Shown here: one piece after another, positions 23,374 to 39,744 of the stretch
Layout of the letters: each line of letters starts with the position of its first letter
Position numbering within the stretch: position 1 is the stretch's first letter
NCBI RefSeq assembly: GCF_025822765.1
Contig: NZ_JACKUK010000023.1
Location: forward strand, 329,535 to 393,534
Length of the DNA: 64,000 nt
Direction: 5' to 3'
From: Mycobacterium barrassiae
Lineage (GTDB): Bacteria; Actinomycetota; Actinomycetes; Mycobacteriales; Mycobacteriaceae
The notes under the pieces: generated by a model
Told to the model about the DNA's origin: nothing
What the model saw: the letters and a program-made list of their open reading frames with translations, nothing else
The model's database searches: none
Position numbers and translations under genes: made by a program

Positions 23374-23757
23374 TCAGACCTGCATCGCCTCGAAAAGCGT
23401 CGCGAATTGGCCCGGTGTGATCGCGATGCCGCACTGGTTACGCAGGTCCTGAAGCGGTCCCGCGATCCTCCTGAGGTCCAGGAACTCGCCGGGGTTGGCC
23501 GTGAAGTAGCCTCGCACGTTGTTGCGCGCCACGTCCGGCGGCTGCGTGGCCGCCGCGGTCAACACGTCGTTGGCGCCGGGGTGCCCGCTGAGGTAGCCAC
23601 CGGCCTCCGCGAGCACGCCGCCGGCCACGCTGGCGAGCCCGCTGGCGGTGCAGTCGGCTGCGCTGGCATTAGGCGCGGCGATGACCGCGGACGCCCCGAG
23701 CGCCGCGACGGCGATCGTGGTCATGACTCGACGTCTGGGGTGGGCTGACTTCATCAT
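23374..23757 (-). CDS. Hemophore-related secreted protein
   Basis: A 127-residue exported protein: signal peptide to about residue 33 (ending PNASA), then a small helical domain with two cysteines (DCTASGL and RNQCGI). This layout (DCT at the mature N-terminus, YLSGHPGANDVL, YFTANPGEFLDLRRIAGPLQDL) is that of the mycobacterial heme-binding Rv0203-like hemophore family. I chose the first of two tandem ATG codons, 23757. It diverges from an iron ABC transporter, and an IdeR-like box lies between, so iron-repressed expression is likely (inference). A second family member is at 36780-37124. Confidence 0.85.
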   Translation of the reverse strand: MMKSAHPRRRVMTTIAVAALGASAVIAAPNASAADCTASGLASVAGGVLAEAGGYLSGHPGANDVLTAAATQPPDVARNNVRGYFTANPGEFLDLRRIAGPLQDLRNQCGIAITPGQFATLFEAMQV

Positions 23758-23885: not shown

Positions 23886-23904
23886 TTAGGTAACCCTCAG
23901 CTAA
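23886..23904. promoter_or_regulatory. IdeR/DtxR-type iron box
   Basis: The 19 bp TTAGGTAACCCTCAGCTAA match the DtxR/IdeR consensus TTAGGTTAGCCTAACCTAA at 15 of 19 positions, with complete TTAGGT and CTAA ends. It lies in the 180-bp gap between the divergent hemophore-like and iron-transporter genes, 34 bp from the transporter ATG. Repression by Fe(II)-IdeR is the expected effect. Confidence 0.75.
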
Positions 23905-23937: not shown

Positions 23938-24954
23938 ATGCGCCCTCGTTGGAGCCGGTTCGCTGCACTCTTGTCAACTGCTGCCGTGGTCCTCGCCGCG
24001 ACGTCTTGCTCGAGTTCCAACGAGAGCGATGAGCTACTGATCTACAACGCCCAGCACGAGTCGCTGACCAAAGAGTGGATCGAGGCGTTCACCGAAGAGA
24101 CGGGCATCAAGGTCACGTACCGCCAAGGTGGCGACACCGAACTGGGCAACCAGCTGGTCGCCGAGGGCGCCGAGTCTCCCGCCGATGTCTTCTTGACCGA
24201 GAACTCCCCTGCCATGGCCGCCGTCGAGAAGGCGGGGCTGTTCGCCGATCTCGATTCCGCCACCCTCGATCAGGTTCCTGCGCAGTACCGCCCGGCCACC
24301 GGCAAGTGGACCGGCGTCGCGGCGCGTAGCACCGTCTTCGTTTACAACACCTCCAAGCTGCAGCCTGACCAACTGCCGAAGTCGCTGCTGGACCTGCAGC
24401 TGCCGGAGTGGAAGGGCCGCTGGGGCGCCCCACCGACGAAGGCCGACTTCCAGGCCATCGTCGCGGCGCTGCTGCAGCTCAAGGGTGAAGCCGAAACCTC
24501 GAAATGGCTCGCGGCGATGAAGTCCGGCGCGACGCTCTACAGCGACAACATCGCCACGCTGAAGGCCGTCAACGCGGGCGAGGTCGACGGCGGGGTGATC
24601 TACCACTACTACTGGTTCCGCGATCAGTCGAAAACCAAAGAGATGAGCGCGAATACGGCGCTGCACTACTTCAAGAACGAGGATCCGGGCGCATTCGTCA
24701 GCCTGTCCGGCGGCGGCGTGCTCGAGTCGAGCAAGAAGAAGGATCAGGCCCAGCAGTTCATCCGGTTCATCACCGGCAAGAAGGGCCAGGAGGTGCTGGA
24801 GAAGGGCACGTCGTTCGAATACCCCGTCGCCAGCGGGGTGCCCGCCAATCCCGCGCTGCCGCCGTTGGACTCGCTGCAGGCACCCGCGGTCGACCCGTCG
24901 ATGCTGAACTCTCAGCTGGTGACGGATCTGATGACGAAGGCGGGCTTGCTGTAG
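23938..24954 (+). CDS. Ferric-iron ABC transporter substrate-binding lipoprotein
   Basis: A 338-residue class II (FbpA/AfuA-type) solute-binding protein. The signal peptide ends in a lipobox, LAATSC, with Cys24 as the lipid anchor. Mature segments LLIYNAQHESLTKEWIEAF and DVFLTENSPAMAAVEKAGLF are those of ferric-binding proteins, and the adjacent tyrosines in IYHYYWFRD match the iron-ligand pair. A GGAAGGA ribosome site precedes ATG 23938. First gene of an operon with permease, ATPase and an adenylating enzyme, downstream of an IdeR-like box. Confidence 0.93.
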   Translation: MRPRWSRFAALLSTAAVVLAATSCSSSNESDELLIYNAQHESLTKEWIEAFTEETGIKVTYRQGGDTELGNQLVAEGAESPADVFLTENSPAMAAVEKAGLFADLDSATLDQVPAQYRPATGKWTGVAARSTVFVYNTSKLQPDQLPKSLLDLQLPEWKGRWGAPPTKADFQAIVAALLQLKGEAETSKWLAAMKSGATLYSDNIATLKAVNAGEVDGGVIYHYYWFRDQSKTKEMSANTALHYFKNEDPGAFVSLSGGGVLESSKKKDQAQQFIRFITGKKGQEVLEKGTSFEYPVASGVPANPALPPLDSLQAPAVDPSMLNSQLVTDLMTKAGLL

Positions 24955-26532
24955 GTGACTGCTGCTCCCCCCGTCCCGGCGCCCGCGGTTGAAACCTCGC
25001 GGTCGGAAGCGACCGCGAGGCCGGGTCCACTGGTTTCGGCGACGGTTGCGATTCTCGTTGCCGCCACCTGCATTCCACTCGGTTACGTGGTGTGGGGCAC
25101 GGTGTCTGTCGGGTGGACGCGCGCCTACGAGTTGGTCGTCCGGCCGCGAGTCGGCGAACTGCTGATCAACACCGTCGCGCTCGTCTTCGTCACGGTGCCG
25201 CTGTGCGTACTGATCGGTGTCGGTGTCGCCTGGCTGACCGAACGAACCGACCTCCCGGGTCGAGGGTTCTGGCGTCCGTTGTTCGTTGCGCCACTGGCGG
25301 TCCCAGCGTTCGTCAACAGCTACGCGTGGGTCGGTGTGATCCCGTCGATCCACGGACTGTGGGCGGGAGTCCTGATCACCACCTTGTCGTACTTCCCGTT
25401 CATGTATCTACCCGTGGCGGCCACCCTGCGCCGGCTCGATCCCGCCGTCGAGGAATCCGCGCGTGCGCTCGGTTCGGATTCGGTGGGTGTGTTCTTCCGC
25501 GTGGTCCTGCCACAGCTGCGGCTGGCAATCCTGGGCGGCGCACTGCTGGTCTCGCTGCATCTGCTCGCGGAATTCGGGGCGTTCGCGATGATCCGCTTCG
25601 ACACCTTCACCGTCGCCATCTTCCAGCAGTTCCAGGTCACGTTCGACGGTGCGGCGGGGAGCATGCTCGCCGGCGTGCTGGTTCTGCTGTGTCTGGTGCT
25701 GCTCACCGTCGAAGCGACCGCCCGCGGCAAGATCCGGTTCGCCAGAATCGGCTCGGGCGCGCCACGCACTGCGACGCCGAACCACCTGGGCCGCAGCACA
25801 ATCCCCGCGCTGACCGCGCTGACCTCCCTCGCGGTCCTGGCGCTCGGCGTTCCGGTGTGGACGCTGCTGCGCTGGCTGTGGATCGGCGGGGTCGACGTGT
25901 GGGACTTCTCCGCACTCGGCAACTCGCTCGCCCAGACGATCGGGTTGGCGAGCGCGGCCGCAGTCATCACGACTGTGCTGGCCTTCCCTGTCGCATGGGT
26001 CGCGGTGCGATCCAGCGGCGTGCTGGCCCGCGCCGTCGAGGGCGCCAACTACGTCACCAGCTCTCTGCCGGGCATCGTCACCGCGCTCGCGCTGGTGACG
26101 GTCGCCATCCACTACGCGCGACCGCTCTACCAAAGTGTTCCGCTGATCGTGTTCGCCTACGTCCTGTTGTTCATGCCGCGTGCGTTGGTCAACGTGCGAG
26201 CCGGTTTGGCCCAGGTGCCGCCGAGCCTGGAGGAAGCCTCCCGGTCGCTGGGCGCGTCGCCGACAGAGACGTTCCTCCGTGTGACGCTGCGCCTCACCGC
26301 ACCCGCCGCCGCGGCGGGGGCCTCCCTGGTATTCGTCGCCGTGGCAACCGAATTGACCGCAACCCTGCTGCTCGCACCGACCGGTACCCGAACGTTGTCG
26401 ATGATGTTCTGGTCGTGGAGCAGCGAACTCGACTACGCCGCAGCCGCGCCGTACGCACTGGTGCTGGTGCTGTTGGCCATACCCGTGACCGTTCTGCTGT
26501 TCCGCCAGTCGATGAAGGTGGCCGCTCTGTGA
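24955..26532 (+). CDS. Ferric-iron ABC transporter permease (two-domain, FbpB type)
   Basis: A 525-residue inner-membrane permease with about twelve helices in two homologous halves. Each half has the EAA coupling loop: PAVEESARALGSDSVGVFFR near 165 and PSLEEASRSLGASPTETFLR near 425. The GTG at 24955 directly follows the stop of the binding protein, so translation is coupled. It forms the channel for iron uptake with the neighbouring lipoprotein and ATPase. Confidence 0.94.
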   Translation: MTAAPPVPAPAVETSRSEATARPGPLVSATVAILVAATCIPLGYVVWGTVSVGWTRAYELVVRPRVGELLINTVALVFVTVPLCVLIGVGVAWLTERTDLPGRGFWRPLFVAPLAVPAFVNSYAWVGVIPSIHGLWAGVLITTLSYFPFMYLPVAATLRRLDPAVEESARALGSDSVGVFFRVVLPQLRLAILGGALLVSLHLLAEFGAFAMIRFDTFTVAIFQQFQVTFDGAAGSMLAGVLVLLCLVLLTVEATARGKIRFARIGSGAPRTATPNHLGRSTIPALTALTSLAVLALGVPVWTLLRWLWIGGVDVWDFSALGNSLAQTIGLASAAAVITTVLAFPVAWVAVRSSGVLARAVEGANYVTSSLPGIVTALALVTVAIHYARPLYQSVPLIVFAYVLLFMPRALVNVRAGLAQVPPSLEEASRSLGASPTETFLRVTLRLTAPAAAAGASLVFVAVATELTATLLLAPTGTRTLSMMFWSWSSELDYAAAAPYALVLVLLAIPVTVLLFRQSMKVAAL

Positions 26533-27572
26533 CCGAACCAATGGTCGACGTCCGAGGACTCGCGAAGTCGTTCAACGGCCATGTCGTGCTGGATCACATC
26601 GACCTGCGACTGGAACGGGGCACCACGACCGCGGTCGTCGGTGCGTCGGGTTGCGGAAAGACCACGCTGCTGCGTCTGATCGCGGGCTTCGAGACCCCCG
26701 ACGAAGGAACCGTCACCATCGACGGCAGGCAGGTCGCCGGTGCGGGACGCGCCGTGGCACCGCACCTGCGCAGCGTCGGCTACGTCGCACAGGACGGCGC
26801 GTTGTTCCCGCATCTGACCGTCGGGCAGAACATCGCCTACGGCATTCGCGGCGAAAGTCGCGACAAGGTGCGCCGCCGCGTCGACGAACTGCTCGAAACC
26901 GTCTCTCTCGATCGATCATTCGCCGCACGCCGGCCGCACCAGCTCTCGGGCGGCCAGCAACAGCGCGTCGCCCTCGCCCGTGCGCTGGCCCGACAGCCGG
27001 TGCTGATGCTGCTCGACGAGCCGTTCAGTGCGCTGGACACCGGTCTACGCGCGTCCACCAGAAAGGTGGTCGCCGGGTTGCTCGCCGAAGCCGGCGTCAC
27101 CTCACTGCTGGTGACCCACGACCAGGAGGAGGCGCTGTCGATCGCCGACCAGGTGGCGGTGATGCGTGACGGCCGGTTCACTCAGGTCGGCTCACCGCAG
27201 CTGGTGTACCGGCAGCCGAACGACCGCTTCACCGCCGAGTTCCTCGGCGACAGCATCACGCTGCCGTGCGTCGTCGAGTCCGGAATGGCCGAGTGCGCGA
27301 TCGGACGGGTGGCGGTGCGTGCCGAAGACGGTCCGGGCACGCTGCTGTTGCGACCCGAACAACTTGTGGCGAAGGCTGTTTCGGACAGCGAGCAGCTCGA
27401 CGGCGTCGGCAGGGTCATGGCCGTCGAATTCCTCGGCCACGACGTCCTGTTGACCATCGATCCCGCGGGCGACGTCGAACCGATTGTCGTGCGCCAGGCC
27501 AGCCTTGATCCCCCGCGTATCGACGCGAAGGTGCGTATCGAGGTGGTGGGCACCGGAGTCGTCTTCACATGA
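26529..27572 (+). CDS. Ferric-iron ABC transporter ATP-binding protein (FbpC type)
   Basis: A 347-residue ATPase: Walker A GASGCGKTT, Q-loop YVAQDGALFPHLTV, signature LSGGQQQRVALARAL, Walker B LMLLDEPFSALD, H-loop VTHDQEEAL, and a C-terminal TOBE-like domain (about 260-347). GTG 26529 overlaps the permease stop as GTGA; the longer frame upstream only shadows the permease. The C-terminal ATGA overlaps the next gene's start by 4 bp, tying the adenylation-carrier-acyltransferase protein to the importer. Confidence 0.95.
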   Translation: MTEPMVDVRGLAKSFNGHVVLDHIDLRLERGTTTAVVGASGCGKTTLLRLIAGFETPDEGTVTIDGRQVAGAGRAVAPHLRSVGYVAQDGALFPHLTVGQNIAYGIRGESRDKVRRRVDELLETVSLDRSFAARRPHQLSGGQQQRVALARALARQPVLMLLDEPFSALDTGLRASTRKVVAGLLAEAGVTSLLVTHDQEEALSIADQVAVMRDGRFTQVGSPQLVYRQPNDRFTAEFLGDSITLPCVVESGMAECAIGRVAVRAEDGPGTLLLRPEQLVAKAVSDSEQLDGVGRVMAVEFLGHDVLLTIDPAGDVEPIVVRQASLDPPRIDAKVRIEVVGTGVVFT

Positions 27573-30064
27573 GCACGCTCGTCGACCACCTGCGCGGCCA
27601 CGGTGAACGCATCGCGGTGCTCACCGACACCGCGCAACTGACGTACCTTCAGCTCGCAGAGCGCGTTGCGGAGGCGGCCGGTGTGCTCCGCGGTGCGCGT
27701 CGCCTCGTACTTCTCGAAACCCGCAATGACATACCGACGTTGGTGCATTATCTGGGCGCGCTGGCGGCCGGCCATGTCGTGTTACCGGTCGATGCGCGTC
27801 GTGATCACGCCGCCATCGACGCGACGTACTCTCCCGACATCGTCATCGACGACCACGGTATCCATCACCGCAATCATGACCAGCGTCCACTGCACGACGA
27901 TCTCGCGCTGCTGCTGTCCACCTCGGGCACTACGGGCTCACCGAAGTTGGTGCGGCTGTCGAAGCAGAATCTCGTCGCCAACGCCACCGTCATCGCCGAA
28001 TACCTCGGTATCCGCGAAACCGACAGGGCGGCAACGACGCTGCCGATGTCGTACTGCTACGGCCTGTCGGTGATTCACAGCCACCTGCTCGTCGGCGCGA
28101 GTCTGATCCTCACCGACCGATCTGTGGTCGACGAGGAGTTCTGGGAGCTTTTCCGCCGACACCGCGGGACCTCGTTCGCGGGCGTGCCCTACACCTTCGA
28201 GCTGCTGGAGAGCGTCGGTTTCGACGCTGCTGACCTGCCCCACCTTCGGTACGTGACACAGGCCGGAGGCAGAATGCCGCCCGAGCGGGTGCGCAGATTC
28301 GCCGAACTCGCGCGCGACGCGGATTTCGAGCTGTTCGTGATGTATGGCGCTACCGAGGCGACCGCCCGAATGTCCTATCTGCCACCTGAACTCGCGCTGT
28401 CCCGACCGAATTCGATCGGCCGCCCGATCCGGGACGGATCATTCACGATCGAACCAGTGGACGATTGGGCCGACGACGACACCGGCGAGCTCGTCTACCG
28501 CGGCCCCAACGTGATGATGGGCTACGCACACGGACCAGACGACCTGAAACTCGGAAAGACGGTGGAGACGCTGCGCACCGGCGACATCGCACGACGCGGC
28601 CCCGACGGACTGTACGAGATCGTGGGCCGCAACAACCGGTTCGTCAAAATGTACGGCCTGCGTATCGATCTGGGACAGGTCGAGGCCGCGTTGCGCGCCG
28701 ACGGCATGCCCGCCTTCTGCACCAACGATGACGACCTGATCCTGGTCGCCGCCGCAGGACGGCATGACGACCGCGAAATCCAGCGGACTGCGGCCGAGGC
28801 CGCGGGGGTGCCGGCGGGCGCCGTGCGCGCCGTCGCCGTCGACGAACTGCCACTGTTGCCCTCAGGCAAACCGGACTACGAGACCGTGCGCCGGCTCACG
28901 CGGAGGACCGAGCAGCTCCAGGCCACGGATCTGCGCGGGTTGTTCGCAGACGTGCTGCAGATCGAGCCCGTCGCAATCGATCCCGATGCGAGCTTCATCG
29001 ACCTCGGCGGTAACTCTCTGTCGTACGTCATGATGACGGTGCGGCTGGAGCGAGCGATCGGTCAGCTGCCGCCCGAGTGGCAGCGCATGCCCATCCGGGA
29101 ACTCGAGACCATCTCCAAGCCGCCGCGCCGCGGCTGGCTAGCGACCCTGGAGACCAGTGTCGCGCTTCGCGCGGCGGCGATCGTGCTCATCGTCGGGACC
29201 CACGCCGAGCTGTTCGAACTGTGGGGTGGCGCGCATCTGCTGCTGGGAATCGCCGGATACAACTTCGGCCGCTTCTGCCTCACGCCCGCGCCGCGCAACG
29301 ACCGCGTGCGCCATCTGGGCAACACCATCGCGTGGATCGCGGCGCCGTCGGTGTTGTGGGTCATGATCGCGCTGCTGCTGACCGACCACTACACGTGGAC
29401 AAATCTGTTGCTGGCCAACAAGTTCCTCGGTCCACACGACAGTATGACCGCGGGCCGACTGTGGTTCGTCGAGGTACTGGTGTGGACGCTGATCCTGCTG
29501 ACCCTGGTGTTCTGGCTGCCGATGATGGATCGGCTCGAACGCCGCCTCCCCTTCACCGTCGCTGTCGTGTTCCTCGTCATCGGTCTGGCGCTGCGGTACG
29601 ACATCCTCGGCCTGGACCTGGGGCGCGATGCGTGGTTCACCATGCTGGCGTTCTGGTTCTTCGCAATCGGGTGGGCAGCGTCGAAGGCGACGACGACACT
29701 GCAGCGGGTCGCGGTGTCGGTCGTGCTGATCGTCAGCCTGCACGGCTATTTCGGCAACACCCTGCGCGAGCTGATGGTGATGGGCGGTCTGCTGCTGGTC
29801 ATCTGGTTGCCGACGATCCGGTGCCCATCGGTGTTGACGGTCGCGACCGGCGTGCTGGCGGAGGCGTCGCTGTACACGTATCTGGTCCACTATCAGGTCT
29901 ATGCGTTGTTCGACGGCCATCCCGCGCTCGGCGTACTCGCATCCCTGGCCGTGGGTGTGCTGCTGACGTATTTGGTGACGGTGCTGCGCCGACGGCTTCG
30001 CGGACGGTTCGGTTCGCTCAGCTCCGATGCGTCGCGCCGCGGCACGGCAGTCAGCCAGACCTGA
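27569..30064 (+). CDS. Adenylation-carrier-acyltransferase-3 fusion protein
   Basis: An 831-residue three-part protein. Residues 10-445 are an NRPS-type adenylation domain with STSGTTGSPK (A3), YGATEATARMSY (A5), TGDIARRGPDGLYE (A7) and the catalytic Lys434 in LPSGKPDYE (A10). Residues 452-510 are a carrier domain with the phosphopantetheine Ser483 in DLGGNSLSY. From about 525 on there are ten or so hydrophobic segments of an acyltransferase-3 domain that starts with the R-x10-H pair (Arg534, His545). It should activate an acid, load it on the carrier and transfer it at the membrane to a lipid, glycan or small molecule. ATG overlaps the iron-transporter ATPase stop (ATGA), so it shares the iron operon. 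Substrate unknown. Confidence 0.88.
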   Translation: MSTLVDHLRGHGERIAVLTDTAQLTYLQLAERVAEAAGVLRGARRLVLLETRNDIPTLVHYLGALAAGHVVLPVDARRDHAAIDATYSPDIVIDDHGIHHRNHDQRPLHDDLALLLSTSGTTGSPKLVRLSKQNLVANATVIAEYLGIRETDRAATTLPMSYCYGLSVIHSHLLVGASLILTDRSVVDEEFWELFRRHRGTSFAGVPYTFELLESVGFDAADLPHLRYVTQAGGRMPPERVRRFAELARDADFELFVMYGATEATARMSYLPPELALSRPNSIGRPIRDGSFTIEPVDDWADDDTGELVYRGPNVMMGYAHGPDDLKLGKTVETLRTGDIARRGPDGLYEIVGRNNRFVKMYGLRIDLGQVEAALRADGMPAFCTNDDDLILVAAAGRHDDREIQRTAAEAAGVPAGAVRAVAVDELPLLPSGKPDYETVRRLTRRTEQLQATDLRGLFADVLQIEPVAIDPDASFIDLGGNSLSYVMMTVRLERAIGQLPPEWQRMPIRELETISKPPRRGWLATLETSVALRAAAIVLIVGTHAELFELWGGAHLLLGIAGYNFGRFCLTPAPRNDRVRHLGNTIAWIAAPSVLWVMIALLLTDHYTWTNLLLANKFLGPHDSMTAGRLWFVEVLVWTLILLTLVFWLPMMDRLERRLPFTVAVVFLVIGLALRYDILGLDLGRDAWFTMLAFWFFAIGWAASKATTTLQRVAVSVVLIVSLHGYFGNTLRELMVMGGLLLVIWLPTIRCPSVLTVATGVLAEASLYTYLVHYQVYALFDGHPALGVLASLAVGVLLTYLVTVLRRRLRGRFGSLSSDASRRGTAVSQT

Positions 30065-32193: not shown

Positions 32194-34362
32194 TCAGGAG
32201 CGCACCAGTTTTATCGCGGCCGCCTCGACCGTCTCCTCCGACAGCAGGACCTGCAGTGCTGCGTCGCCGAGCGGGATGAAGCTGTCCTTGCTCGCGACGC
32301 GATCGAGCCGCCCCGCAAAACCGTGCTTCACCAGCGTGGCCAGCACACCCTCGCCCACGCCGCCGGTCTCGCGCGTCTCGTCGACGATGAGCACCCGCCC
32401 GCTGACCTCGGCCTCCCGCAGCATGTCCTCGACCGGCAGCGGCGCCAACCACCTCAGGTCGACGACGCGCACATCGATGTGAAGCGACGCCAGCCTGCGC
32501 GCGACCCGCAGGCTCATTCGAAGGCCGTTGCCGAACGTCAGGATCGTCAGATCGGTGCCCTCGCCGTACGTCCGCGCCCGCCCCACCGCGATGCCCGACT
32601 CTGGGTACGGTGCGAGCCAACCGCCGTCGTTGTCGTCGTGCAGATCCCGCGTGTGGTAGAGCGCGATCGGCTCCAGGAAGATGCACACCGCGCCCGCGTC
32701 TCGCGCCGCGGCAACGCACGTGTGCAGCATTCCAGCGGCGTCATCCGGACGCGCGGGCGATGCGATGACGACGCCGGGGATGTCGCGCATCGCCGCGATG
32801 GAGTTGTCGTTGTGAAAGTGGCCGCCGAAGCCCTTCTGGTACCCGTAGGCGGCCACCCGGACGACCATCGGGTTGCGGTACTGCCGGTTGGAGAAGAACT
32901 GCAGTGTCGCCGCCTCGCCGCGGATCTGGTCGGCCGCGTTGTGGAAGTAAGCGAGATACTGGATTTCAGGAATCGGCAGCAGTCCCGACACGCCGGCCCC
33001 GAGTGCCAACCCCAGGATCGACTGTTCATCGAGCAACGTGTCGAACACCCGCGCCGAACTGGTCGCCGCCTGCAGTCCACGCGTCACGCCGTACACGCCA
33101 CCCTTGCGGGCGACGTCCTCTCCGAAGATCATCGCCTCTGGATACCGGTCCAGAATGTCGTGCAGCGCACGGTTGATCGCGGCCGCGAGGGTGATCGGCG
33201 CATCCGCGTCGCCGGCCCTGACAGAGGCGACCAGTGATACGGGAGCGGCCGCCACCACTTCATCGTGCGCGGTTCGCAGCGGCTCCATCACCGCTTGGGC
33301 GCTGTCCAATTGAGGCAGTCCGCTGACCTCATCGGCCATCTCGATGACCTTGGCGCGCATCGCTTCATAGCGCTCCAGAGCTGCCCCAGGTGTCAACACA
33401 CCGCGCTCGATCAACAGTTGCGCGGTGCACACCACCGGATCGCGGCCGTAGGACGCGGCGATCTCCTCGGCACTGCGATACGCCGGCTCGTAGTCCGATC
33501 CGGCGTGGCCCATCAGCCGTACCGTCCGCAGATGTAGGAACGCAGGACGCCGACGGGTCCTTACCCACTCGGCAGCCGCGGTCGCCGCATCGAAGCTCGC
33601 AGCGACGTCCGATCCGTCGGCCGAGAAATACGCCAAACCGTCACGGCTGCCGAACATCTGCTCGATCCAGCCACGGGGTGTGGGCACACTGATGCCTATC
33701 CCGTTGTCCTCACAGACGAACAGCAGCGGCATCGGCACGCCCTGATACGCGGCGTGCAGTGCGGCGTTGACCGCGCCGACAGCGGTGGAATGGTTCGCCG
33801 ACGCGTCGCCGAAGCTGCACACCGTGATCGCGTCCTCCGGCCATGCGCATGTCACCCCGAGCTTCTTGGCGCGGGCTATGGAGAACGCGACACCGAGCGC
33901 CCTCGGAAGGTGCGACGCGATGGTCGACGTCTGCGGAATGACGTGCAGGTCATGGCGTCCGAACACTTTGTGGCGTCCACCCGCGATCGGTTCATCGGTC
34001 GCCGCGACCAATCCGAGCAGCACATCCCTCAGCCCGTCGAGACCGGCGCGCGCCAGAAAGAATGCTCCGGACCGATAGTGCAGCAGCGCGGGATCGGTTG
34101 GCCGTAACGCCGCCGCCACCGCGGAATTGCCTTCGTGGCCGGACGATCCGATGGTGTAGTAGCCCTTGCCCTGCGCTCGCAGGTATCGTGCGGCGAGATC
34201 GAGATGACGACTGCCCAGCGCGGCGTCGAACAGCGCCAGGCTTGCGCGCACCGTCAGCGACGACCCGTCCCGGACGGGTAGCTCATCTCCCGGCCGCTCG
34301 TGCGCCGACTCGCTCATCCCCGAGATCGTCGCGGTGAAATATTCGTCGATGGGTTCGGCCAC
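32194..34362 (-). CDS. Thiamin-diphosphate alpha-ketoacid dehydrogenase E1, alpha and beta fused
   Basis: A 722-residue fusion of both subunits of a branched-chain/pyruvate-type E1. The alpha half (about 40-370) holds the ThDP site CSFGDASANHSTAVGAVNAA and VCEDNGIGISVPTP; the beta half (about 400-722) holds FGEDVARKGGVYGVT, TLLDEQSILGLALGAG and VRVAAYGYQKGFGGHFHND. Decarboxylates a 2-oxo acid and passes the acyl group to a lipoyl E2. No E2 or E3 gene is next to it, so it may use partners from elsewhere or work as a stand-alone decarboxylase. A long palindrome lies just after its stop. ATG 34362 is used; MSESAHERPG 15 codons in is an alternative. Confidence 0.9.
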   Translation of the reverse strand: MAEPIDEYFTATISGMSESAHERPGDELPVRDGSSLTVRASLALFDAALGSRHLDLAARYLRAQGKGYYTIGSSGHEGNSAVAAALRPTDPALLHYRSGAFFLARAGLDGLRDVLLGLVAATDEPIAGGRHKVFGRHDLHVIPQTSTIASHLPRALGVAFSIARAKKLGVTCAWPEDAITVCSFGDASANHSTAVGAVNAALHAAYQGVPMPLLFVCEDNGIGISVPTPRGWIEQMFGSRDGLAYFSADGSDVAASFDAATAAAEWVRTRRRPAFLHLRTVRLMGHAGSDYEPAYRSAEEIAASYGRDPVVCTAQLLIERGVLTPGAALERYEAMRAKVIEMADEVSGLPQLDSAQAVMEPLRTAHDEVVAAAPVSLVASVRAGDADAPITLAAAINRALHDILDRYPEAMIFGEDVARKGGVYGVTRGLQAATSSARVFDTLLDEQSILGLALGAGVSGLLPIPEIQYLAYFHNAADQIRGEAATLQFFSNRQYRNPMVVRVAAYGYQKGFGGHFHNDNSIAAMRDIPGVVIASPARPDDAAGMLHTCVAAARDAGAVCIFLEPIALYHTRDLHDDNDGGWLAPYPESGIAVGRARTYGEGTDLTILTFGNGLRMSLRVARRLASLHIDVRVVDLRWLAPLPVEDMLREAEVSGRVLIVDETRETGGVGEGVLATLVKHGFAGRLDRVASKDSFIPLGDAALQVLLSEETVEAAAIKLVRS

Positions 34363-36779: not shown

Positions 36780-37124
36780 CTACCCCATCGGCATGTCGGG
36801 CAGCGGCGCGTTGCAGCGATCGCGGAAGTCAGCAGCCGCCTGCCGCACGGCGCGCAGCTCGTCGCGGACCTGTGGATGCGCGTCCAAATATGTCTGGATC
36901 TCGGTGCTCATCTCGTCCCGGCTCTTGCCCTTCAGACCCGTGAAGAACGCGTTCACATCCGGGTGGGTGAACAGGTATGACGACGTACCGGCGGAGACGC
37001 CGGCCATGACGCCGGCCAGATCGGCGGCCGTGCAGTTCGGTGGATCGGCGGCCGCCGTACCGGCGGTGCCGAAGATCATCGCACCGGCGATCATGCCGGC
37101 GCCTATCACACTGCGAGACAACAT
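36780..37124 (-). CDS. Hemophore-related secreted protein, second copy
   Basis: A 114-residue exported protein: signal peptide ending near residue 26 (GTAAA), then NCTAADLAGVMAGVSAGTSSYLF and DFRDRCNAP with two cysteines. The layout matches the 23374-23757 protein and the Rv0203-type hemophore family (C-T at the mature start, FTHPDVNAFFTGL, YLDAHPQVRDELRAVRQ). ATG 37124 (MLSRSVIGAGMIAG) is chosen over the longer frame. No iron box was found in the short upstream gap. May bind heme or another small hydrophobic ligand. Confidence 0.82.
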   Translation of the reverse strand: MLSRSVIGAGMIAGAMIFGTAGTAAADPPNCTAADLAGVMAGVSAGTSSYLFTHPDVNAFFTGLKGKSRDEMSTEIQTYLDAHPQVRDELRAVRQAAADFRDRCNAPLPDMPMG

Positions 37125-37186
37125 CTGACGCTCCTTGCTTGAATGGACAATCGGACTGTAACGACGGTGCAAATCAACGACAATGC

Positions 37187-38424: not shown

Positions 38425-39744
38425 GTGCTCGAACTCGACGACATCCAGCACATCCTGCTGACCCGCACCCCGGCGATCACCGGGCGCTACGAGTTCTTGT
38501 CATTCGACACCCCGGCCGGCGGGCGGACCTGGCTGTCGGAGCTACTACCGAAGACGCAGTCGGCCAGTGAGGCCGCCGCCACGATGGACGAGTCAGATCG
38601 TTGGGTCACATTGGCTTTCACCTGGAACGGTCTTCGTGCGCTCGGAGTTCCGGACGACGCGCTATCGACGTTTCCCGATGAGTTCCGTGAAGGGATGGCC
38701 GCTCGAGCCGACATCCTCGGTGATACCGGCACCGCAGCACCTGAACACTGGCTCGGCGGCCTCGCGGGCGATGACCTGCATGCGATCGCCATTCTGTTCT
38801 CGCGCACCGACGAACAGTGCCGACGGTCCATCGAAGAGCACGACAAGCTGCTGGCTCGCGTCGACGGTGTCAGGTCCCTTTCCCATCTCGACCTCAATGC
38901 GACGCCTCCGTTCAACTACGCCCACGATCATTTCGGTTTCCGCGACCGACTGTCACAGCCGGTGATGAAGGGCTCCGGCGAAGAACCGACACCCGGCTCC
39001 GGCGCCGCGCTGGAACCGGGAGAATTCATACTCGGTTACCCGGACGAGAACGGACCGGTGACGAATCTCCCCGAGCCGCAGGTACTCTCACGCAACGGCA
39101 GCTACATGGCCTACCGCCGGCTCGAGGAACACGTCGCGCTGTTCCGTGACTATCTGCGCGAACACGCCGAGACACCCGAGGACCGGGAACTGCTGGCGGC
39201 GAAATTCATGGGCCGATGGCGCAGCGGTGCGCCGCTGGTGTTGGCACCGGACAACGACGACCCCGAACTCGGGGCCGATCCGATGCGCAACAACGACTTC
39301 AACTACAAGGAGATGGATCCCTTCGGATACGCGTGTCCGCTCGGCTCTCATGCCCGACGGCTGAATCCACGCGACACCGCTCACAATATGAACCGCCGAC
39401 GCATGATCCGCCGCGGAGCCACCTACGGCCCGGCCCTGCCGGAAAGCGCACCCGACGACGGCGTCGACCGCGGCATCGCCGCGTTCATCATCTGCGCCGA
39501 CCTGATCCGGCAGTTCGAATTCGCCCAGAACGTCTGGATCAATGACAAGACGTTCCACGAGCTCGGAAACGAGCACGATCCGATCTGCGGCACCCAGGAC
39601 GGGTCGATGGACTTTACCGTGCCCAAGCGTCCGATCCGCAAGGTACACAAGGGCATTCCTGCCTTCACCACACTCCGAGGTGGCGCGTACTTCTTTCTTC
39701 CCGGAATGAACGCCATGCGGTACCTGACCTCGCTCGGCGACTAG
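38425..39744 (+). CDS. DyP-type heme peroxidase
   Basis: A 439-residue dye-decolorizing peroxidase, cytosolic, no Tat signal. The proximal heme ligand is His309 in CPLGSHARRLNPRD, which is the long-form (class C/D-like) wording. The distal motif GxxDG reads GFRDR here (171-175): the catalytic Asp174 is kept but the last Gly is Arg, followed by LSQPV. GTG 38425 is the start. The product could use H2O2 to oxidise aromatic or phenolic compounds; partner genes on both sides are of unknown function. Confidence 0.93.
   Translation: MLELDDIQHILLTRTPAITGRYEFLSFDTPAGGRTWLSELLPKTQSASEAAATMDESDRWVTLAFTWNGLRALGVPDDALSTFPDEFREGMAARADILGDTGTAAPEHWLGGLAGDDLHAIAILFSRTDEQCRRSIEEHDKLLARVDGVRSLSHLDLNATPPFNYAHDHFGFRDRLSQPVMKGSGEEPTPGSGAALEPGEFILGYPDENGPVTNLPEPQVLSRNGSYMAYRRLEEHVALFRDYLREHAETPEDRELLAAKFMGRWRSGAPLVLAPDNDDPELGADPMRNNDFNYKEMDPFGYACPLGSHARRLNPRDTAHNMNRRRMIRRGATYGPALPESAPDDGVDRGIAAFIICADLIRQFEFAQNVWINDKTFHELGNEHDPICGTQDGSMDFTVPKRPIRKVHKGIPAFTTLRGGAYFFLPGMNAMRYLTSLGD

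Follow-up and report, generated by a model that had tools for sequence, protein, structure and literature searches.

Ferric importers of the FbpABC type are, to our knowledge, usually described as needing only their binding protein and the iron source of the medium. The acyltransferase-3 (AT3, or TmAT) membrane proteins are characterised by ten helices, by R-x10-H in helix 1 and SxxxY in helix 9, and by an RxxR motif at helix 3 that is highly, though not absolutely, conserved and has been proposed to hold, together with the helix-1 arginine, the phosphate of coenzyme A (CoA) (PMC9833829). Fusion partners named for AT3 include SGNH and racemase domains (PMC9558356) and NRF (PMC12423673); the main text of the AT3 review (PMC9558356) mentions none of AMP-binding, adenylation, iron or siderophore. 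The locus considered here lies in 64,000 nucleotides of Mycobacterium barrassiae DNA (NZ_JACKUK010000023.1, positions 329,535 to 393,534 of the forward strand), the whole of which is called the window below. The last gene of a putative ferric-iron import operon encodes there, in one chain, an adenylation domain, a carrier domain and an AT3-like membrane domain. Its constituent parts are already known and their combination appears to be new, and no description of either the fusion or the operon was found in the open-access literature as judged by titles and abstract openings, most subscription journals being outside that coverage. On balance, and by a modest lean only, we favour the view that the protein is an iron-repressed, one-chain enzyme for acid activation and transmembrane transfer that serves the ferric-iron importer.

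The fused protein

The gene and its domains are as follows.

27569..30064, + strand: fused adenylation, carrier and AT3-like protein of 831 residues; last gene of the operon
27596..28903, + strand: adenylation domain, about residues 10-445, with Lys434; Pfam AMP-binding
28931..29113, + strand: carrier domain with phosphopantetheine Ser483 (codon 29015-29017); PP-binding over residues 455-502
29150..29983, + strand: AT3-like domain with ten helices, R534-x10-H545 and S767-x3-Y771, and no RxxR; from Pfam, profile comparison, motifs and hydropathy

An initial annotation made from the letters of the window had read the domain order as adenylation, carrier and membrane acyltransferase-3, and this order was borne out: Pfam finds AMP-binding (5.2e-50) and PP-binding (8.5e-10) in the 831-residue protein, and family matches and a profile alignment identify the remainder as AT3-like. 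Conservation was gauged on 51 fused homologues chosen so that every pair is less than 72% identical. In their alignment the two residues to which that annotation had assigned the catalytic and the carrier role, Lys434 and Ser483, are each invariant (51/51).

What sort of acid would be activated? In adenylation domains that act on amino acids, an aspartate holds the amino group of the substrate. Its counterpart, placed by hand against the GrsA motif, is residue 163, which is Cys in the window protein and, among the homologues, Cys in 43 and Ser in 8 of 51. Because the predicted pocket is without the aspartate that would bind an amino group, the activated acid is probably a non-amino carboxylic acid and not an alpha-amino acid. 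The core motif in the alignment, LP-x-x-Y-C/S-YGLSV, is kept from mycobacteria to rhizobia, which suggests one common acid type across the family. The best family match of the acid-activating part is an exosortase-system acyl-CoA-ligase model, at 177 bits far under its cut-off of 592.

The one-chain protein is widespread. In sequence records it mostly goes by the name of AMP-binding protein, in some by AMP-dependent synthetase, and one split record is also annotated as an acyltransferase family protein; among phage records none carries it. Two stand-alone adenylation relatives (L106 and L164) have carrier, SDR, acyltransferase, sugar or LuxC/LuxE-like genes as neighbours, surroundings that suggest sugar acylation and specify no acid. 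At 5724-12243 of L164 the relative is accompanied by LuxC, LuxE, SDR, carrier and hexapeptide transferase genes, a cluster that may encode a pathway of sugar acylation.

The C-terminal domain is, by its sequence, AT3-like, a call made because family members match in Pfam, a profile alignment agrees, and R-x10-H and SxxxY are kept. The Acyl_transf_3 model is matched at E<=0.01 by 43 of the 51 members, at best with 6.4e-13, and a profile of 20 members compared with a profile of ten AT3 proteins from the same genome gave E 1.4e-5 (a single comparison) and probability 80, with R-x10-H aligned onto R-x10-H. The R-x10-H pair with which the initial annotation had the membrane part begin is strongly conserved, R534 being present in 51/51 and H545 in 50/51 (the exception is L049), as is SxxxY, with S767 in 47/51 and Y771 in 49/51. 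The ‘ten or so’ helices of that annotation correspond to ten averaged hydropathy peaks past residue 520, and the pattern of basic loops favours both termini being inside. Besides Acyl_transf_3, Pfam reports no family in the C-terminal part, i.e., no MBOAT.

One AT3 hallmark is missing. RxxR is in register in 0/51 fused proteins, 23 of which retain the second arginine only; it is in register in 11 of the 12 AT3 proteins of the same genome, ten counted by script and two (L152 and L156) judged by eye, with L156 showing it shifted by one residue. Such a loss is as expected if the acyl donor is the protein's own carrier, with transfer from Ser483, and not free CoA, since the nucleotide of CoA is absent from a carrier-bound donor.

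The operon, its iron box and its recurrence

Upstream of the fused gene are the following features.

23886..23904, no strand assigned: DtxR/IdeR-type box TTAGGTAACCCTCAGCTAA, 33 bases before the first codon of the operon; 15/19 to consensus
23938..24954, + strand: ferric-iron binding protein (SfuA/FbpA type) with solved ferric-binding relatives; SBP_bac_6
24955..26532, + strand: ABC permease; BPD_transp_1 in two stretches
26529..27572, + strand: ABC ATPase with TOBE domain; ABC_tran 2.5e-37 and TOBE_2; start chosen within a longer open frame
23374..23757, - strand: divergent haemophore-like (MHB) gene; PF16525 MHB 2.9e-27; start placed by eye; shares the intergenic region of the box

The stop of the ATPase gene overlaps the start of the fused gene as ATGA, as had been seen initially. 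Placement in an iron-uptake operon also held, by way of the binding protein. Among proteins of solved structure, this one is nearest to a ferric iron ABC binding protein, SfuA and YfuA (the top three, E 7.8e-130 to 3.9e-127), and most of its 32 solved matches bear iron-binding-protein names. The families of the ATPase and the permease do not point to a particular substrate, the best 25 family matches of the ATPase are all under their cut-offs, and the ATPase alone is no proof of iron. It is thus the binding protein, of the FbpA family, that marks the importer as one for ferric iron, and from its similarity the FbpABC-type operon is predicted to transport Fe3+.

Scored against the 19-base DtxR/IdeR consensus, the box is the best site on either strand of the window, the runner-up place scoring 12. 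A palindromic pattern shaped on it matches exactly nowhere else in the 5.9 Mb genome, in which two encoded proteins carry a DtxR-type repressor domain. Of the five further places with two mismatches, which as a set are not above chance, three were examined: one precedes a nonribosomal peptide synthetase (NRPS)-like gene, one precedes a thioesterase-like gene that has a ketosynthase-like gene beside it, and one separates a prephenate-dehydratase-like gene from its neighbour, the types being judged by a reader from translations; we take these contexts to resemble mycobacterial IdeR targets.

How general are the box and the linkage? The set of loci comprises 78 actinobacterial and 6 alphaproteobacterial ones (84 rows), with linkage meaning an FbpA-like gene within 6 kb. 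The count excludes L106 (adenylation only) and the short-flank loci L001, L040-L057 and L064-L101, for many of which longer stretches were used instead. Sampling is weighted toward the genus of the window, where three of six re-taken genomes (L141-L143) were chosen for an absent importer, which lowers the linkage count.

With the best site in 281 bases around the operon start scored and 13/19 as threshold, a box is present in 64/78 actinobacterial loci and in 6/3144 random windows, which came from all 84 loci and are mostly coding; at 14/19 or better the counts are 51/78 and 0/3144. Shuffled upstream regions have a mean best score of about 10. Outside the genus of the window, to which 37 of the 78 loci belong, 34/41 have a box. 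It is present in 39/43 importer-linked loci, and before the fused gene itself in 25 of the 35 loci with no importer adjacent, 34 of them scorable (L134 has no upstream sequence). Because these unlinked copies carry the box directly upstream, the fused gene looks like a box target in its own right. The operon and the fused gene are thus apparently under low-iron control of the DtxR/IdeR type, as the box predicts, and the suggestion of the initial annotation that the protein acts in low iron gains from this recurrence.

That annotation had also proposed a survey of gene neighbourhoods for an iron importer. By the 6-kb criterion 43/78 actinobacterial loci are linked to an FbpA-like gene, 30/37 within the genus of the window and 13/41 outside it. 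Among the 43 the importer comes first in 32, the fused gene first in 7, the two are divergent in 3 and one has another order; the partner binding proteins are 31-100% identical to that of the window and so represent diverged FbpA partners. A tree built quickly from 79 of the 84 rows (without L134 and four later loci), in which long branches meet and gain and loss look alike, implies at least 11 switches of the linkage state, 9 of them forced by well supported branches. The alphaproteobacterial loci were taken from 104 matching plasmid records, 78 of which cover 80% or more. One of the six is linked, L103 from Pararhizobium sp. A13. Its fused gene is transcribed divergently from the genes of a ferric importer, and the binding protein of that importer belongs to another FbpA lineage (nearest solved iron-binding structures 1y9u and 1q35) and is 27% identical to that of the window. 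Two other neighbours were considered as iron importers and rejected, that in Phyllobacterium having a sugar-type binding protein and that in Rhodobacter one nearest to pyrimidine-precursor binding proteins.

Co-occurrence was followed in 298 genomes of one order, both surveys being taken as covering the same 298. The fused protein is present in 40, read by hand, with four partial matches checked (not G193, at a contig end). An FbpA-like protein (E<=1e-40) is found in 37/40 genomes with the fused protein, the others being G057, G181 and G298, vs 59/258 without it (Fisher 1e-17, kinship not removed).

Several observations stand beside these. Mycobacterium sp. PSTR-4-N carries, besides the linked copy L023, one of the copies with neither importer nor box that are listed below; paralogues may have left iron control. 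Plasmid copies of the operon (L058 and L061) adjoin cadmium, arsenic or cation-efflux genes, and metal-resistance islands may carry the unit along. Of the 32 loci that share the gene order of the window, 20 have an MHB gene close by (24 had a match, four of them far on the other side and not counted), and so has L141, which has no importer. Since the divergent MHB gene of the window shares its intergenic region with the box, the latter may act in both directions. A second haemophore-like MHB (PF16525) gene is at 36780-37172 (- strand). Scans for promoters and terminators yielded nothing useful. Elsewhere in the window, a DyP-type peroxidase-like protein (38425-39744, DyP_N 1.3e-08) is followed by a 333-residue frame with no Pfam match, and 32194-34362 (- strand) encodes one 722-residue chain with E1 dehydrogenase and transketolase-type domains.

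A proposed role and its rivals

If the protein does serve the importer, in low iron the DtxR/IdeR-type repressor would come off the box and the operon would be made. In the cytoplasm, to go by the conserved motifs, the adenylation domain would activate a carboxylic acid, probably not an alpha-amino acid, and load its own Ser483. The carrier would then hand the thioester to the AT3-like domain, and the acyl group would pass through the membrane to an outside acceptor, a step for which the proposed AT3 mechanism and the loss of RxxR argue. More tentatively, and with the odds somewhat against it, our best guess for the product is an iron ligand, extracytoplasmic or bound to the wall, that would help to bring Fe3+ to the FbpA-type protein. 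More speculative still is a self-contained, four-gene form of iron uptake in Actinomycetota and Alphaproteobacteria, in which one membrane protein, its own carrier replacing CoA, would make and export a soluble or wall-tethered acyl chelator for its FbpABC partner, so that one enzyme would do the work of a multi-enzyme siderophore pathway. These findings suggest a component of iron uptake, built of known parts, that has not been described before. If that is true, many actinobacteria would supply the FbpABC route with a ligand or surface of their own making, and an AT3-type enzyme that draws on its own carrier, not on CoA, would widen what is known of acyl transfer across membranes.

A number of results weigh against a dedicated role in ferric import. 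No importer is adjacent in 35/78 actinobacterial loci, and five of the six opened alphaproteobacterial loci are not beside ferric importer genes. A good box is absent from 14/78 (L017, L033, L145, L139, L024, L026, L036, L120, L126, L132, L133, L134, L143 and L170), and L024, L026, L036 and L143 have neither box nor adjacent importer. The DtxR/IdeR-type box occurs in 0/6 alphaproteobacterial loci, where other repressors were not tested, and the five two-mismatch sites in the genome compare with 12 for a reversed control pattern. No chelator, export or receptor gene was noticed to recur beside the fused gene, siderophore receptors not having been searched for. The C-terminal part on its own matches Acyl_transf_3 weakly (E 0.001, 18.7 bits), and at 15.6-18.7 bits the window protein stays under the cut-off of 31 bits.

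Might the operon partners instead share no more than a joint response to starvation? The main rival, which we consider possible if rather unlikely, is envelope remodelling in low iron: an acyl group added to a membrane lipid or wall glycan would alter charge or permeability, and the product would have no contact with iron. It accords with the two stand-alone adenylation relatives set among sugar or polysaccharide-type carrier, SDR and acyltransferase genes, and with characterised AT3 proteins, which mostly acylate extracytoplasmic sugars (PMC9558356, PMC9833829). However, the linkage to ferric importers recurs in varied gene orders and involves FbpA partners that have diverged, a specificity beyond what a general starvation response would lead one to expect, and the presence of the family in mycolate-bearing as well as Gram-negative bacteria speaks against a glycan peculiar to one lineage. 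Improbable, to our minds, is a tailoring enzyme that acylates, during or after export, a siderophore (mycobactin or some other NRPS product) made elsewhere. Contigs 11 and 35 do carry NRPS-like genes, and the latter has two box-like sites ahead of such genes (types again from translations), but the family spans lineages that would hardly have a siderophore in common, and the neighbours found to recur are ferric-ion binding proteins, receptors for siderophores being outside the search.

The initial annotation had called the protein a fused Dlt-like machine, and its fused architecture of activation, carrier and transferase stands. A strict Dlt-like system, with D-alanylation or aminoacylation of the envelope, would have the same three activities; that this is one we regard as very improbable. 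DltB is an MBOAT protein and the transferase here is AT3-like, the DltA-type ligase model TIGR01734 scores 71.3 bits against a cut-off of 559.85, and the amino-binding aspartate is replaced in all 51 homologues, so that membership in Dlt was rejected. Of the findings that the initial annotation had named as counting against it, namely a C-terminal part other than AT3, unconserved Ser483 or Lys434, and no iron linkage in relatives, none was made.

Comparison with known systems

The Dlt (DltA, DltC and DltB) and Alm systems resemble the fused protein in activating an acid, loading it on a carrier and transferring it at the membrane. It differs from them in being one chain, in an AT3-like domain replacing the MBOAT or LpxL-type transferase, in a pocket not of the amino-acid type and in its iron box. 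In the epsilon-poly-lysine synthetase Pls, adenylation, carrier and membrane domains are likewise in one chain; Pls activates an amino acid and has six helices with condensation-like domains, and the ten-helix AT3-like domain sets the fused protein apart. The three genes before the fused gene match the FbpABC/SfuABC systems, with a binding protein close to SfuA and YfuA, and we know of no acid-activating membrane enzyme in the systems of that kind described.

Its likeness to AT3/TmAT proteins such as OafB and OatA lies in the ten helices, R-x10-H of helix 1 and SxxxY of helix 9 (motifs after PMC9833829), and its distinctness in the absence of RxxR in register, the N-terminal adenylation and carrier domains, the iron box and the importer linkage. 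An AT3 protein with a low-iron role, AimS of Acinetobacter baumannii, is the subject of a preprint, which reports that it acts via repression of pilin production and independently of cellular metal content (PMC13345540). AimS is a stand-alone AT3 working by another route, whereas the protein of the window brings adenylation and carrier domains of its own.

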